From Omnitrophica WOR_2 bacterium RBG_13_41_10 (GTDB lineage Bacteria > Omnitrophota > Gorgyraeia > Gygaellales > Profunditerraquicolaceae), in NCBI GenBank assembly GCA_001805465.1, contig MHGH01000015.1, positions 20,709 to 58,232 of the forward strand: DNA of 37,524 nucleotides, in the 5' to 3' direction. Numbering within the stretch: position 1 is the stretch's first letter; the number at the start of each line of letters is the position of its first letter. Under the pieces are notes generated by a model. The model was not told the DNA's origin, did not search any database, and saw only the letters and a list, made by a program, of their open reading frames with translations. Shown here piece after piece: positions 3,001 to 10,094 of the stretch. Both the position numbers and the translations under genes were made by a program.

Positions 3001-4008
3001 ATGGCCAGTTTAGGTCTACGTACTATTGATGAGATGGTGGGAAGGCCAAACTTACTGGAATTAAATAGCGATATCTTACCGTGGAAGGCAAAACAAATCG
3101 ATTTTTCAAAAATCCTCTATAAACCTGAAACAGCGAATACCGTAGGAACTCATTGTGCTGTAAAGCAGAGTCACGGGATAAACAAAGTTTTAGATTCAAA
3201 ACTTATCGAGTTAGCAAAACCCGCATTTGAAAAGGGCGAGCCAGTAAGAGCGGCATTAGAGATAAATAATACAAATAGGGCCACAGGCGCTACCTTAAGT
3301 GGTCGGGTATGCAAAGTTTTTGGAGAAGAAGGGCTTTTAGATGATACGATTCATTTTAAATTTAAAGGTATAGCGGGTCAAAGTTTCGGGGCATGGTTGG
3401 CAAAAGGGGTTACCTTTGAGCTGGAGGGGATGAGCAATGACTATGTAGGAAAAGGCATTTCCGGAGGTAAAATCATCATCTATCCGGATAAACAGGCGGA
3501 TTATAGACCGCAAGAAAATATTATTATTGGTAATACTACTTTCTATGGAGCGATAAGTGGCGAGGCGTATATCAGAGGGGTTGCCGGAGAGAGATTTTGT
3601 ATTAGAAATTCCGGTCTAAATGCGGTAGTGGAAGGAGTAGGAGAGCATGGTTGTGAGTATATGACCGGCGGAAGGGTTGTGGTTTTAGGTAAAACCGGCA
3701 GAAACTTTGCTGCTGGAATGTCCGGCGGTATCGCTTATATCTATGATCTAGAGGGTGATTTTAAGGATAAATGCAATACGGATATGGTGCAATTAGAAAC
3801 ACTATTAGAGGCCGACGCCGATACGGTTAGAGAGTTGTTGCTAAACCATTATCGCTATACAAAAAGTTCAGTGGCCAAAGAGGTGCTCGATGATTTTAGT
3901 AATAAAATGCGAAAGTTCATAAAGGTTATGCCTTTTGAGTATAAGCGCATTTTGGAAAAAAGAGGAATAAAAGAAGAGCTAGAATTGATAGAGGTTTCTG
4001 ATGGGTGA
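1..4008 (+). CDS. gltB: Glutamate synthase large subunit, 5' truncated by window edge
   Basis: Frame 1 is open from base 1 (TNLSSRTISYKGLLMPQQLDKFF, upstream of the listed Met), so the true start is outside the window. GATase II, FMN/Fe-S and GXGXG-repeat regions are recognisable (TGEGGEDPARF, PGEGGQLPGHKVS, ISPPPHHDIYSIEDLAQLI, GGDGGTGASPLSS). Confidence 0.97.
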   Translation, partial: TNLSSRTISYKGLLMPQQLDKFFLDLRDQALESALVLVHSRYSTNTFPTWDLAQPFRFLAHNGEINTLRGNINWMRAREGLLRSDLFGKDLKKILPVIVPGGSDSATIDNVFELLVLAGRPLAEAMMMLIPCAWQQDNFMDEKLKAFYKYQACLMEPWDGPAAIVFSDGIRVGASLDRNGLRPARYIITKDGRVVMASEVGVLDINPSDIQTCGRLEPGKILFIDTQQGRIIEDQVLKGLISRIEPYSQWIKEGVVKLDSLKVTKSLPRLPWRQANRQVTGEDILTQLKAFGYTREDLKFIIKPMVENAQEPIGSMGCDTPYAVLSQRPQLLYAYFKQLFAQVTNPAIDPIREELVMSLETYLGPEKNILKDSPKHCHKLLIKRPIITNEELEKIRHIKTNNFKAKTISLLFPATKRGGSAKGGNISGEDAFRKKLENICQDATWAIKKGYTFIILSDRGVDENQAALPALLATAAVHHHLVSSVLRNQIGIIVESAEPREVHHFALLFGYGADCINPYLAFEAVKYVVGDELTNLNPEKVIQRYIKAAEKGILKILSKMGISTLQSYRGAQIFEAVGLSSDVIDNYFSGTVSRIGGASLDTIAKESLLRHKEAFYELETPFLKTGGFYQYKRDGEFHLWNPENIALLQDATRNCDLKRYQEFAKAINNQADNPTTLRSLLRFKKRKPIPIAEVESQDEIFKRFATGAMSFGSISKNCHETIAIAMNKLSAKSNTGEGGEDPARFVTLVNGDSTRSAIKQVASGRFGVTTNYLVNADELQIKIAQGAKPGEGGQLPGHKVSQIIAKTRYTTPGVTLISPPPHHDIYSIEDLAQLIFDLKNVNPDARISVKLVSEVGVGTIAAGVAKGHADTILISGGDGGTGASPLSSIRHAGLPWELGLAETHQTLVLNDLRSRVRLQTDGQMRTGRDVAIACLLGAEEFGFSTSVLIVLGCVMLRHCHLNNCSVGIATQDKILEARFPGKPEYIINYFHFVAEELRQIMASLGLRTIDEMVGRPNLLELNSDILPWKAKQIDFSKILYKPETANTVGTHCAVKQSHGINKVLDSKLIELAKPAFEKGEPVRAALEINNTNRATGATLSGRVCKVFGEEGLLDDTIHFKFKGIAGQSFGAWLAKGVTFELEGMSNDYVGKGISGGKIIIYPDKQADYRPQENIIIGNTTFYGAISGEAYIRGVAGERFCIRNSGLNAVVEGVGEHGCEYMTGGRVVVLGKTGRNFAAGMSGGIAYIYDLEGDFKDKCNTDMVQLETLLEADADTVRELLLNHYRYTKSSVAKEVLDDFSNKMRKFIKVMPFEYKRILEKRGIKEELELIEVSDG
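1237..1272. repeat. 36-bp GC-rich double-hairpin element in-frame within gltB
   Basis: CCCGCCAC-aaagc-GTGGCGGG (1237-1257) plus TCCGCC-aaa-GGCGGA (1258-1272); encodes PATKRGGSAKGG. Confidence 0.8.
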
Positions 4009-5410
4009 TCTGAGAGGATTCTTAAAAGTAAAAAGAGGAGCTTCGCAGTATAGACCAGTGTGCGAACGGCTAAAGGATCATTGCGAGGTTTGCCTACTAC
4101 CCGAGGTAGAGTGTTCTCAAGAGCAGGCTTCGCGCTGTATGGATTGTGGTACACCTTTTTGCCATTGGGGATGTCCAATTGGAAATTACATACCCGAATG
4201 GAATGATTTAGTTTTTCGCGGGCATTGGCAGAAGGCATTCCAACTTTTGGCTGCGACTAATAATTTTCCGGAAATCACCGGAAGGATTTGCTCGGGCCTG
4301 TGCGAATATTCCTGTGTTCTGGGAATAAATGATGACCCTGTAACCATAAAAGAGAATGAATTAGCGATAATTGAATATGCCTTCCAGATGGGGCTAGTTA
4401 AGCCAAGCCTACTTAAGAAACGCACTGGAAAACAGATAGCCATAGTAGGTTCAGGGCCAGCAGGTTTGTCTTTGGCGGACCAGCTGAATAAAGCCGGTCA
4501 TTTAGTAGTAGTTTTTGAAAAAGCAGATAAAATCGGGGGAATGCTGCGTTATGGTATCCCTGATTTTAAACTGGAAAAATGGATACTGGACCGTAGGATT
4601 GAGATTCTTAAAAGAGAAGGGATTATATTTAATACCGGTGTTTATGTAGGTAAAGGATTAAAGGACGAATATTTAAAAAAGGAGTTTGACGCTATCTGTT
4701 TGGCTATGGGTTGCGGCGTACCACGAGATTTAAATATAGAAGGTAGGTCTTTATCAGGGATTCACTTCGCTATGGATTACTTAATTCAGACGAATAAGAA
4801 GGTTAGCGAAGAAAAAATTCCTTCTGATAAATTAATTGATGCAAAGGGCAAAAGAGTCGTGGTGATTGGTGGCGGCGATACGGGTGCGGATTGCTTGGGT
4901 GTAGCGCATCGCCAAGGCGCAAAATGCGTGGTGCAGATTGAACTTTTAGCTAAGCCGCCAGAATGTCGAACCCCAGATTATCCTTGGCCAAAGTATCCTT
5001 TGCTTTGCAAAACTACTACTAGCCATGAAGAAGGTGGGATAAGGGAGTGGTCAGTCTCCACTAAAAAGCTTATCGGAGAGAACGGTTGGGTAAAAAAGCT
5101 CCTTTGTCAGAGAGTGAACCAAGAAACAGCTGGCAGAGAATTTGAAATTGAGGCAGATTTGGTGATTTTAGCCTTAGGGTTTCTGCATCCTGAACGTAAT
5201 GGTTTACTTAAAGATCTATGCTTAGAACTTGACTCAAGGGGCAATGTAAAAACTGATGAGAATTATATGACTTCAAGCAAGGGGATCTTTTCTGCTGGAG
5301 ATATGCATAGGGGGCAATCCTTAGTAGTCTGGGCTATCTCAGAAGGAAGAAAAACTGCCTATGCAATAGATAAATATTTAATGGGCAAAAGTAATTTGTC
5401 AATGCTTTAG
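4001..5410 (+). CDS. gltD: Glutamate synthase small subunit
   Basis: CMDCGTPFCHWGCPIGNYIPEWNDLV Fe-S region, GSGPAGLSLADQL FAD motif, GGGDTGADC NADPH motif; overlaps gltB by 8 nt. Confidence 0.96.
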   Translation: MGDLRGFLKVKRGASQYRPVCERLKDHCEVCLLPEVECSQEQASRCMDCGTPFCHWGCPIGNYIPEWNDLVFRGHWQKAFQLLAATNNFPEITGRICSGLCEYSCVLGINDDPVTIKENELAIIEYAFQMGLVKPSLLKKRTGKQIAIVGSGPAGLSLADQLNKAGHLVVVFEKADKIGGMLRYGIPDFKLEKWILDRRIEILKREGIIFNTGVYVGKGLKDEYLKKEFDAICLAMGCGVPRDLNIEGRSLSGIHFAMDYLIQTNKKVSEEKIPSDKLIDAKGKRVVVIGGGDTGADCLGVAHRQGAKCVVQIELLAKPPECRTPDYPWPKYPLLCKTTTSHEEGGIREWSVSTKKLIGENGWVKKLLCQRVNQETAGREFEIEADLVILALGFLHPERNGLLKDLCLELDSRGNVKTDENYMTSSKGIFSAGDMHRGQSLVVWAISEGRKTAYAIDKYLMGKSNLSML

Positions 5411-5422
5411 AGGCATTGACAA
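5396..5422. promoter_or_regulatory. Perfect 10-bp inverted repeat spanning the gltD stop codon and the predicted -35 box
   Basis: TTGTCAATGC-(TTTAGAG)-GCATTGACAA. Confidence 0.7.
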
Positions 5423-5443
5423 CCAGAGGAAACATGTTATACT
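5416..5443 (+). promoter_or_regulatory. Sigma70-type promoter upstream of pyrG
   Basis: TTGACA (5416-5421), 16-nt spacer, TATACT (5438-5443). Predicted TSS about 5449-5451. Confidence 0.7.
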
Positions 5444-5455
5444 CAATAGTAGTCC

Positions 5456-5471
5456 AAAGTAGTACTACTTT
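5456..5471. promoter_or_regulatory. Perfect 16-bp palindrome just downstream of the predicted TSS
   Basis: AAAGTAGTACTACTTT equals its own reverse complement. Confidence 0.65.
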
Positions 5472-5478
5472 AGAGAAC

Positions 5479-5521
5479 AAAGGCGTTTAGGGCCGGATTG
5501 TTGGCACTGAGCGCTTTTTTT
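5479..5521 (+). terminator. Intrinsic-terminator-like hairpin in the pyrG leader (attenuator candidate, or gltBD terminator)
   Basis: AAAGGCGTTTAG-G-GCC / loop GGATTGTT / GGC-A-CTGAGCGCTTTT, followed by a T run (T7 at 5515-5521, partly in the stem). Includes G-T wobbles and one G-A mismatch. Confidence 0.65.
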
Positions 5522-5526
5522 ATTGA

Positions 5527-5580
5527 GGCCACAACTTATGGAGTAGCAGTTTTAATTTTGGCGACATAAGTTGTATGGCC
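5527..5580 (+). promoter_or_regulatory. Leader hairpin upstream of pyrG
   Basis: GGCC-ACAACTTATG (5527-5540) pairs with CATAAGTTGT-(AT)-GGCC (5565-5580): 10 bp, 2-nt bulge, 4 bp. Confidence 0.6.
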
Positions 5581-5586
5581 GAAATA

Positions 5587-5641
5587 ATCCCGCCTTTTCT
5601 TACTATATGGTGCCTAAATTGCTTTGATGAAAAGGCGGGAT
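5587..5641 (+). promoter_or_regulatory. Leader hairpin directly before the pyrG ribosome-binding region
   Basis: ATCCCGCCTTTTC (5587-5599) and GAAAAGGCGGGAT (5629-5641): perfect 13-bp inverted repeat with a 29-nt loop. Confidence 0.65.
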
Positions 5642-5654
5642 AAGAGGTAAAACT

Positions 5655-7268
5655 ATGGCAAAATACATATTTGTAACCGGTGGCGTAATATCAAGCCTGG
5701 GTAAGGGCATTACTTCCGCTTCAATCGGAAAGATTTTGGAATCACGGGGATTAAAAATTACTCTTATGAAGTTAGATCCTTATATTAATGTTGACCCCGG
5801 CACCATGAACCCTTATCAGCATGGCGAGGTTTATGTTACCGAAGATGGAGCAGAGACAGATTTAGACCTTGGGCATTACGAAAGATTTATCCGCGCCCAG
5901 ATGACCAAATTCAATAATGTTACTACTGGACAGGTATATAACACGGTAATTTCTAAAGAGAGGCACGGTGATTACTTAGGCAAGACAATTCAGGTAATTC
6001 CGCATATCACTGATGAGATCAAAGAGAGAATAAAAAAAGTCGCCCAGGTGTCCGCAGCCGATATCGTTATTATTGAAGTTGGCGGCACAGTAGGTGATAT
6101 TGAGAGTTTGCCGTTTCTGGAAGCAGCCAGGCAATTCAGCTTAGATATAGGTAAGGATAACGTGATTTATATTCATCTTACTCTCGTTCCTTATATAAAA
6201 TGCGCAGATGAGATAAAGACAAAACCGACACAGCATAGCGTAGGTACATTACGTGAAATCGGGATCCAGCCGGATATATTAATCTGTCGTACTGAAAAGA
6301 CATTATCCTGCGAACTAAAGGAAAAGATATCTCTGTTTTGTAATGTGCGCAAGGAAGCAGTTATTGAAGCTAAGGATGTAGAGTCGATCTACCAGATTCC
6401 TCTGGTTTTTAAGAATCAGATTCTAGATGAAATTATCTTAAGTCATTTTAAGTTAATCTGTAAATTTTCAGATTTAAAGGATTGGGAGAAGAATGTAGCA
6501 GAAAGGGTAATTAAGCCTAAAAATAAAGTGACTATAGCGTTGGTGGGTAAATACATTGCTTTACAGGATGCCTATAAGTCCATTTATGAAGCATTAATTC
6601 ATGCCGGTATTTATAATGATACAAAAGTAGAGATTAAAAAGGTAGATTCAGAAGACATCCAAAAAAAAGGCCCGCAAGAATTTCTAAAAGATGTCTCTGG
6701 GATCCTTGTCCCGGGTGGTTTTGGCTATCGAGGAATTGAGGGCAAGATTAAAGCCATTAAATTTTCCAGGGTTAATAAAATTCCTTTTTTGGGTTTGTGT
6801 TTAGGGATGCAGTGTGCAGTAATTGAATTTTCACGGAATATCTGCGGCCTAAAAGATGCCAACTCTACTGAGTTTAGTCCTAAAACAAAAAATCCGGTAA
6901 TCAGTTTACTAGCCCAGCAGAGGAAGATTAAAGATTTAGGAGGCACGATGCGTTTGGGTGCATACCCTTGCAAGATTAAGAAAAATACTTTGGCGTTTAG
7001 GGTATATGGTAAGACATTGATTCAGGAGCGGCATCGCCATAGGTATGAATTTAACAATAAATATAAGAAATTATTAGAGAAAAAAGGTATGAAATTTTGC
7101 GGTATCTATCTTAAGAGAAACCTGGCGGAGATAATTGAATTAAAGAATCATCCTTATTTTATTGCCGTACAGTTTCATCCGGAATTTAAATCTAAACCCG
7201 ATAAGGCCCACCCGTTATTTAGAGAATTTATAAAGGCGGCAATAGAAAGAAGTAAGATTAACTTTTGA
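5655..7268 (+). CDS. pyrG: CTP synthase
   Basis: [33 protein letters not shown]-terminus; GLCLGMQC GATase I nucleophile region; [11 protein letters not shown]. Confidence 0.97.
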
Positions 7269-7272
7269 GTTC

Positions 7273-7356
7273 GTACGGTGTACGGAGTACAGTGTACCGA
7301 GCATACAATGTTATACAAATCAGTAATTACTATGCGCCGTACGCGGTACGCCGTAC
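7273..7356. repeat. Two short arrays of GTACNNN heptamers in the pyrG-carA gap
   Basis: GTAC at 7273, 7280, 7287, 7294 and again at 7339, 7346, 7353; exact 7-nt period in both arrays. Confidence 0.8.
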
Positions 7357-7369
7357 TCAATACTAAAAG

Positions 7370-8455
7370 ATGGATGCAATCTTAGCTTTAGAAGACGGAA
7401 CGATATTTAGAGGTGAATCTTTCGGTGCAGACGGAGAAAGATACGGCGAAGTCGTATTTAACACCAGCATGACCGGATACCAAGAAGTCCTTACTGACCC
7501 TTCTTATAAAGGCCAGATTGTAACTATGACTTATCCTTTGATTGGCAACTACGGGATCAATAAAGAGGATATGGAATCAAGGCGGCCTTTTGTGGAAGGT
7601 TTTGTGGTTAAGGAATGTAGCAAAATTTCCAGCAATTGGCGTAGTGAAAAATCATTAGCGGATTATTTTAAGGAAAATAATATCGTAGGTATTGAAGGTA
7701 TGGATACACGTTCACTTACCTTACACATAAGGCGAGTTGGAACAATGAAGGCGGTTTTATCTACCGAGGATTTGGATGAAGAGAGCCTGGTTCAGAAAGC
7801 CAGAGATTCTCAAGGCTTGGTTGGTATAGATTTAGTCAAGGAAGTAACGTGCAATAAAAAATATATCTGGTCGGAAATAAAAGATAAAGGTTATAAAGTA
7901 GCCGTCTTAGATTGCGGTGTAAAATACAATATTTTAAGGGAATTATTAAATCATGGATGTCAGGTGATTGTGATGCCTGCAAATACATCCGTAAAAGAAA
8001 TATTAGAACTAAAAGCCGATGGGGTATTGCTTTCCAACGGGCCGGGTGACCCCGCAGCAGTTAAATACGTAATTGATACTACCAGAGACCTAATGGGGAA
8101 AATTCCCATTTTTGGAATTTGCTTAGGCCATCAGATGCTGGGTTTGGCACTGGGTGGTGCGACCTATAAACTTAAATTCGGCCATCACGGCGCAAACCAT
8201 CCGGTGAAAGATTTAAAGACAGGAAAGGTTTCTATTACGGTTCAGAACCACGGCTTTTGCGTAGATATGGATTCCCTAAATAAGAAAGATATAGAAATCA
8301 CTCATATCAATCTTAATGACCAGACCTTAGAGGGAATACGGCATAAGAAATTACCTATATTTTCCGTGCAGTTTCATCCTGAAGCCTCAGCAGGCCCGCA
8401 TGATGCCTCGTATCTGTTTGAAGAGTTTATCAAAATGATGAAAAAATATGCCTAA
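7370..8455 (+). CDS. carA: Carbamoyl-phosphate synthase small (glutaminase) subunit
   Basis: [60 protein letters not shown]. Confidence 0.97.
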
Positions 8456-10094
8456 GAGAACCGATATAAAAAAGATTTTAATCATTGGTTCAGGACCTAT
8501 TGTCATCAGCCAGGCCTGCGAATTTGACTATTCCGGAACTCAGGCCTGCAAGGTTTTAAAAGAGGAAGGATACAAGGTAATCTTAGCGAATTCCAATCCC
8601 GCCACCATTATGACTGATCCGGATATGGCAGATAAGACCTATGTTGAGCCTTTAACTGTAGAAACTTTAGAAAAAATTATTGCTAAGGAAAGGCCCGATG
8701 CATTGCTTCCTACCTTAGGCGGACAGACTGCTTTAAATCTTACCGTAGGCTTAGCTGGAAGAAACATACTAAAAAAATATAAAGTAGAGACCATTGGAGC
8801 AAATATTAAGGCCATAAAAAAAGGAGAAAATAGGCAGCTATTCAGAGATTCTATGAGAAAGATAGGCCTGGATTTACCTCGCAGCGTGCTCGCCTATAAT
8901 TTAAAAGCAGCAATGGAAGTAGTAAAAGATATTGGCTTTCCCGTAATTATTCGTCCCAGTTTTACTTTAGGAGGAACAGGCGCAAGTGTAGCCTATAATA
9001 TAGAGGAATTTAAAGGACTGGCCAAGCGAGGTCTGGAGTCTAGCATGATTAGCGAGATCCTTATTGAAGAATCGGTGATTGGCTGGAAGGAATTTGAATT
9101 AGAGGTGATGCGGGATGCCAAGGATAACGTAGTAATTATCTGCTCTATTGAAAATTTTGACCCCATGGGAATCCATACCGGAGATAGCATCACTGTGGCA
9201 CCTGTTCAGACATTGACCGATAAAGAATATCAGAAGATGCGGGATGCCGCGATAGCTTGTATCAGAGAAATCGGCGTAGAAACAGGTGGTTCTAATATCC
9301 AATTTGCTGTTCATCCTGATACCGGGAGAATGGTTATCATTGAAATGAATCCCAGAGTTTCTCGGAGTTCTGCATTGGCCTCTAAGGCAACGGGATTTCC
9401 TATTGCCAAGATTGCAGCAAAATTAGCCGTAGGTTATACTTTAGATGAAATTCCTAATGATATCACCAAAAAAACTCCAGCCTGTTTTGAGCCTACTATT
9501 GATTACTGTGTAGTAAAAATCCCCCGTTTTACTTTTGAAAAATTTCCTTCAACAGATCCGACATTAACCGTTTCCATGAAATCGGTAGGCGAGGTAATGG
9601 CTATTGGTCGGACCTTTAAAGAAGCGTTACAGAAGGCTTTGCGCTCTTTAGAAATTGGATTGAGCGGTTTAGAAGATTTAAAACATAAACCCTCTAGTGA
9701 TGAATTAAAAAATCATTTAAGAATCCCCAATGCCTCAAGGGTTATTTATATTAAGTATGCCCTCAAAGAAGGATGGAGCATCAAAGAGATTTATCAGATG
9801 ACCCGGATTGACCCTTGGTTTTTAGAAAACATTCGACAGATTATCGAATTGGAAGGACAGATAAAAACAAAATTAAAATTGAGCGATGAGAAAAGTTCGG
9901 TGGATTTACTTAAAAGAGCAAAAGAATTCGGCTTTTCAGATTTACAGCTCGCCCGTTTATTAAATCAAAGCGAAGACGTAATAAGAAAGTGGCGTATAGA
10001 ATTAGGGATAAGACCAGATTATAAACTGGTAGATACTTGTGCGGCAGAGTTTGAAGCATTTACGCCTTATTATTATTCTACATACGAACAGTAG
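8448..10094 (+). CDS. carB: Carbamoyl-phosphate synthase large subunit, N-terminal half only (first synthetase domain plus oligomerisation domain)
   Basis: [42 protein letters not shown] through [21 protein letters not shown]-stop. The second synthetase half and MGS domain are absent; purS follows. Confidence 0.93.

Follow-up and report, generated by a model that had tools for sequence, protein, structure and literature searches.

Between gltD and pyrG, the gene for CTP synthase, the genome of Omnitrophica WOR_2 bacterium RBG_13_41_10 carries a leader in which a promoter is followed by a hairpin that resembles a terminator. This raises the question of what would allow RNA polymerase to pass the hairpin and enter pyrG. 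We analysed the locus within a 37,524-nt stretch of contig MHGH01000015.1 (the window, to which positions refer unless another locus is named). A preliminary description, made from the letters alone, had read this leader as a candidate attenuator or an undescribed RNA element.

Promoter, terminator and gene order

The good promoter described upstream of pyrG was confirmed; it is of sigma-70 type, matches at 11 of 12 positions and has a TG ahead of the −10 box, and equivalent promoters lie upstream of the element in the relatives examined (Table 1). The leader is also as highly structured as had been claimed, with positions 5450–5660 folding far better than shuffled sequences (z = −5.6) and positions 5449–5523 giving z = −4.5. 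The proposed hairpin with a T run is present, spanning 5479–5519 with a predicted stability of about −20 kcal/mol and seven T residues at 5515–5521. A consensus terminator scanner did not list it, probably because the loop length and stem of the hairpin fall outside what the scanner allows.

Downstream of pyrG, carA and the N-terminal half of carB are probably co-transcribed with it. We note that this carB encodes only the 548-aa N-terminal half and is followed by a small purS-like open reading frame, so the large subunit seems to be split, with the other half elsewhere. The interval between pyrG and carA (7269–7369) holds a separate short palindromic repeat of the GTACGCGGTACGCCGTAC type.

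Table 1. Features of the pyrG locus, with related single-hairpin leaders in the last row
Feature	Position	Strand	Basis
gltD, end of nitrogen cluster	4001..5410	+	
Sigma-70-type promoter TTGACA-16-TATACT with TG before −10	5416..5443	+	promoter scan; equivalents in relatives
P1 hairpin GTAGTCC-AAAGTA-GTACTAC	5449..5468	+	compensatory changes at 4/7 pairs, 19 leaders
6-nt linker TTTAGA, P1 to P2	5469..5474	+	2–9 nt in 19 P1-containing pyrG leaders
P2, predicted antiterminator hairpin GAAC-AAAGGC-GTTT	5475..5488	+	covariation across target genes (A-U to G-C)
Intrinsic terminator AAAGGCGTTTAG...CTGAGCGCTTTT plus T run	5479..5521	+	folding, covariation
Truncated copy of interspersed palindromic repeat, outside attenuator	5524..5641	+	BLAST, pattern search
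pyrG, CTP synthase, predicted controlled gene	5655..7268	+	
carA, carbamoyl-phosphate synthase small subunit	7370..8455	+	
carB, N-terminal half	8448..10094	+	
P2-only attenuators, promoter near or abutting P2	L016, L076, L082, L084, L022, L029, own gdhA		

The conserved part of the leader

We compared the upstream regions of pyrG in 30 relatives, found by their PyrG proteins; across these regions only positions 5449–5521 are widely conserved. In front of pyrG, the element is found in dozens of Omnitrophota genera, and it shows compensatory changes. Its core, AAACAAWGGCGUUU, is followed by the terminator and reads as a short hairpin, AAAC-AAWGGC-GUUU, which we call P2. Upstream of this core, we found nothing able to form an antiterminator by long-range pairing; in most leaders P2 is preceded by P1, a hairpin of 7 bp whose loop has 6 nt.

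The two later hairpins that had been counted as parts of the leader (10+4 bp at 5527–5580 and 13 bp at 5587–5641) are both present and were rejected as parts of the attenuator, since they are members of an interspersed repeat family. BLAST found related copies at unrelated places in the genome, and the repeat pattern gave 14 matches in the genome compared to 0 for a reversed control pattern. This multi-hairpin repeat, TGAG..ACAACTTATGG / CATAAGTTGT..CGAAWTAATCC..., occurs at 5524–5641 of the window and in L062, L063, L064 and L067; in L002, L072 and L073, similar sequence also comes after the terminator of pyrG.

With gltD ending just upstream of the element, the hairpin might merely end gltBD transcripts, with pyrG read from a promoter further downstream. 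We consider this very unlikely. Between gltD and the terminator there is a promoter close to the consensus, whereas the promoter scan of the pyrG leader found no strong promoter past 5521. The unit is kept when the gene before pyrG is gltB2, gdhA, gltD or another, and the conservation of P1 and P2 exceeds what a terminator needs. In two relatives, L003 and L012, there is almost no gap between the U-tract and the pyrG start codon. Together with the conservation of the terminator across many genera, these leaders support the conditional terminator between promoter and pyrG that the preliminary description had proposed.

The element is not universal: pyrG lacks it in L006, L009, L013, L019 and L027, and pyrG of L014 and L030 reads like an operon member. 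In L009, the arrangement is leaderless, with the pyrG start codon only a few nucleotides past a consensus −10 box. The start codons in L003 and L012, a few bases from the U-tract, have no obvious Shine-Dalgarno sequence.

Two hexaloop hairpins and a terminator that shares sequence with P2

In the window, P1 is a 7-bp stem with hexaloop AAAGUA, in which six of the seven pairs form and one is a C·U mismatch. P2 is a 4-bp stem with hexaloop AAAGGC and all four pairs formed, one of them G-U. ANTAR-target RNAs have two such small stem-loops, of 3 bp or more. Both loops have A at position 1 (A1) and G at position 4 (G4). Positions 5479–5488 are common to P2 (loop and 3′ arm) and the 5′ arm of the terminator, making the two structures mutually exclusive. 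The predicted stability of P2 alone is about 0 kcal/mol, as against about −20 kcal/mol for the terminator, which implies that a protein must hold P2.

The 16-bp palindrome reported in this leader (AAAGTAGTACTACTTT) does exist, at 5456–5471, where it overlaps P1. What relatives conserve is the shifted hairpin at 5449–5468 and not the palindrome, which we rejected as an operator or structure for this lack of conservation. On its own, it folds slightly better (−6.4 kcal/mol) than P1 plus P2 (−4.2 kcal/mol). This competing fold and the mismatch in the stem leave less certainty on the window's P1, though not on its P2.

Two further candidates were rejected. A kissing loop or pseudoknot between the P1 loop and the terminator loop showed no consistent complementarity, as judged by eye only. 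A leader peptide starting at ACAATGGCG was dismissed because its ATG depends on a T at a loop position that varies.

The same anatomy bears on attenuation of the B. subtilis type, in which transcripts starting with GGGC slip at low CTP and the resulting poly-G pairs with a C-rich terminator arm. Although the gene and the promoter-terminator-gene order are the same, the leaders examined show neither a GGG start nor a C-rich 5′ terminator arm. We regard this mechanism as extremely improbable here, in agreement with the preliminary description, which had set it aside on the missing GGGC start and C-rich pairing.

Covariation and a held-out model

The 19 P1-containing pyrG leaders have linkers of 2–9 nt. 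As these sequences are related, loop counts are not independent events: the P1 loop has A1 in 16 of 19 and G4 in 15 of 19 (G4 thus being missing in four), and the P2 loop has a purine at position 1 and G4 in all 19. Across pyrG leaders, A1 is found in 32 of 34 P2 loops, the informative position for P2, because the P2 finder demanded G4. An automatic scan that picked P1 loops regardless of loop sequence found both A1 and G4 in 23 of 40 P1-like hairpins from real leaders, compared to 7% of those from shuffled leaders.

Two-sided changes occur at four of the seven P1 pairs over the 19 leaders, and the P1 structure is 92% paired, against 21–46% with slid partners. Between target genes, P2 alternates among AAAC/GUUU, GAAC/GUUC and GGAC/GUCC, with two-sided changes in 10 cells versus 3.1 in shuffles; P2 hairpins were chosen as pairing, which biases their percentage paired upward and affects two-sided changes less. 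For the whole unit including the terminator, 12 pairs have two-sided changes across 27 leaders, in an alignment that was fitted to the model and so leans towards it. In alignment A5, counting was confined to the inner four pairs.

A model built from four other genera, with the window excluded, recovered the window at 65.5 bits (E = 1.7e-14 in 62.5 kb). The comparison with relatives suggested earlier bears out P1, P2 and the terminator as covarying. A model trained on pyrG leaders matched 117 of 386 genomes of the phylum at E ≤ 0.01. When the first model (R1) was run over pyrG loci of other phyla, no convincing pyrG leader appeared outside Omnitrophota; the best matches reached 25 bits and were not pyrG leaders. 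The proposed Rfam search gave 0 matches at the gathering score and chance-level matches only at a relaxed threshold.

The element marks nitrogen genes and ANTAR genes

Models trained on pyrG leaders alone match two other leaders of the genome studied here, those of gafANTAR (E = 7.5e-5 and 1.1e-4) and amtB (E = 5e-4). In relatives, such models match the leaders of glnA, gltB, amtB/glnK, carA, carB and gafANTAR, and in other Omnitrophota classes they match at the point where an ANTAR gene adjoins nirBD; NCBIfam, run on fragments, identified NirB and NirD there. The nitrite-reductase operon is a classical ANTAR target.

We counted ANTAR genes in genomes with an R1 match and found one in 53 of 53, compared to 10 of the 16 listed without a match (Fisher p ~7e-5, kinship ignored). 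One 86% complete MAG, G011, has the element and no ANTAR match. In genomes with a single ANTAR gene (e.g., G004 and G083), the element precedes pyrG as well as nitrogen or ANTAR genes, suggesting that one protein probably serves both types of target.

The genome studied here has two GAF-ANTAR genes. The first (G000:C15:14476-15195, outside the window) heads the series gafANTAR-gltB2-amtB-glnK-glnA-gltB-gltD-pyrG, and the second sits between glnA2 and gdhA. The ANTAR domain aligns with that of EutV (6wsh, phmmer), keeping R142, K143, Y164 and M172, with R in place of K147. The GAF part is weakly similar to the GAF domain of NifA, far below the cut-off; on this ground 2-oxoglutarate is a reasonable guess for the signal, no more. 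In the leader of gafANTAR itself (L131:3225-3435), three terminators stand in tandem, and a P2-like hairpin lies at the base of every one; in the first, this hairpin has a loop of 8 nt. This arrangement suggests strong autoregulation of the ANTAR gene.

Recognition of P1 and P2 by another RNA-binding protein, PyrR-like or CsrA-like, would suit the fact that the link between protein and RNA is drawn from sequence. However, the A1/G4 hexaloops, the P2-terminator overlap and the linker length all fit ANTAR, as do the regulon content, the autoregulation of gafANTAR and the co-occurrence, and we judge a different protein highly unlikely.

A model for antitermination of pyrG

The pyrG leader is thus very probably an ANTAR-target RNA, at which a GAF-ANTAR regulator would bind and antiterminate. 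This reading draws on the promoter, the conserved and mutually exclusive P2 and terminator, the A1/G4 hexaloops, the covariation, the shared regulon and the ANTAR genes. We infer the binding itself, the antitermination, the signal and the choice between the genome's two ANTAR proteins. By analogy with EutV targets, P1 would be the recruitment hairpin.

RNA polymerase would begin with P1's 5′ base and, by default, stop at the terminator (5479–5521), ending near 5521. Following the model of PMC8934654, an active GAF-ANTAR dimer would bind the P1 hexaloop and then P2 as it emerges. Held in P2 (5475–5488), AAAGGCGTTT would be withheld from the terminator stem, and transcription would continue into pyrG and probably into carA-carB. 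The likeliest signal is nitrogen or 2-oxoglutarate status, acting through the GAF domain. Of the sensing suggested earlier, the link to nitrogen and glutamine holds up, from the regulon, while we found no supporting evidence for sensing of CTP. The making of nucleotides thus seems to be tied into the nitrogen regulon of the cell.

Leaders with P2 only

In six pyrG leaders that we examined, the −10 box lies 5–13 nt from P2, leaving no room, or barely any, for P1. The spacing is 5 nt in four of them, which come from a single genus, 11 nt in L029 and 13 nt in L022. A similar arrangement occurs at the genome's own gdhA, where the −10 box is 18 nt before P2 and there is no P1 (L132, about 5160–5200).

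A metabolite riboswitch, in which an aptamer for CTP, UTP or glutamine directly controls the terminator, would explain a conserved leader ahead of a nucleotide gene without an Rfam match. These compact leaders stand against it, as a distance of as little as 5 nt from the −10 box to the stem leaves no room for an aptamer. The element has no conserved core beyond the two hexaloop hairpins, and the motif is also found before genes for ammonium, glutamine, glutamate and nitrite metabolism and before ANTAR genes. A riboswitch is therefore very improbable, and the idea of an undescribed RNA class did not survive: the anatomy is that of an ANTAR-target RNA, which would act through a protein.

In the eut system, both hairpins are required, and the recruitment hairpin is thought to be obligatory. 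Under the ANTAR reading, P2-only leaders may be weaker attenuators, or P1 may be dispensable with GAF-ANTAR proteins. Whether one GAF-ANTAR regulon couples the nitrogen-assimilation genes amtB, glnK, glnA, gltB and gdhA with pyrG, carA and carB, whose nucleotide synthesis consumes glutamine, with several lineages using a single hexaloop, we consider evenly balanced. If this is true, natural P2-only attenuators would make the recruitment hairpin dispensable, contrary to the eut view. Such leaders make the need for two hexaloops in ANTAR systems directly testable.

Comparison with known systems

The attenuator of pyrG in Bacillus and Lactococcus works by reiterative transcription, with a GGGC start and a poly-G antiterminator. 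The leader described here shares the terminator between promoter and pyrG, but has neither the GGGC start nor the poly-G antiterminator, and its mechanism would depend on a protein. The nas leaders controlled by NasR/NasT undergo antitermination before nitrite-reductase genes; they are similar through the element at the ANTAR-nirBD junction in other Omnitrophota classes, whereas the sensor domain and target gene differ.

ANTAR antitermination of nitrogen genes is already known. Desulfotomaculum acetoxidans and others have predicted ANTAR nitrogen regulons with several attenuators per genome, preceding genes for PII, ammonium transporters and glutamine or glutamate synthases (PMC3369931). The regulon described here is similar in its multiple attenuators per genome and nitrogen targets, and differs in belonging to Omnitrophota and in the addition of pyrG and carA/carB. 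Our literature search found no description of ANTAR targets in Omnitrophota and no paper joining ANTAR with CTP synthase, although the supplementary tables of PMC3369931 may hold a pyrG entry. The literature searched appears to contain no description of ANTAR control of pyrG/car or of natural P2-only versions. The analysis offers an explanation for a leader that is conserved and unannotated in this phylum of uncultured bacteria, and would add CTP synthase and carbamoyl-phosphate synthase to the targets of ANTAR antitermination.

There is also a close likeness to the eut leaders of Enterococcus faecalis, controlled by EutV/EutW. ANTAR-target RNAs have hexaloops with A1 and G4 and a P2 that overlaps the terminator, with linkers of 5–12 nt in eut leaders (PMC3369931). 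The pyrG leader shares the hexaloop pair, the overlap of P2 with the 5′ arm of the terminator and a short linker, which at 6 nt in the window falls within the eut range. The eut consensus, AGCAANGRRGCUY (PMC3369931), closely resembles AACAAWGGCGUUU of the pyrG leaders. In EutV, G4 stacks on Tyr164 and Met172 forms a plug (PMC8934654), and the RNA-contact residues of this ANTAR domain are kept in the GAF-ANTAR protein. The systems differ in that the GAF sensor here is part of the same protein, whereas eut uses a kinase-fed REC domain, in the CTP synthase target, and in P1, which is sometimes absent in relatives and at other targets.
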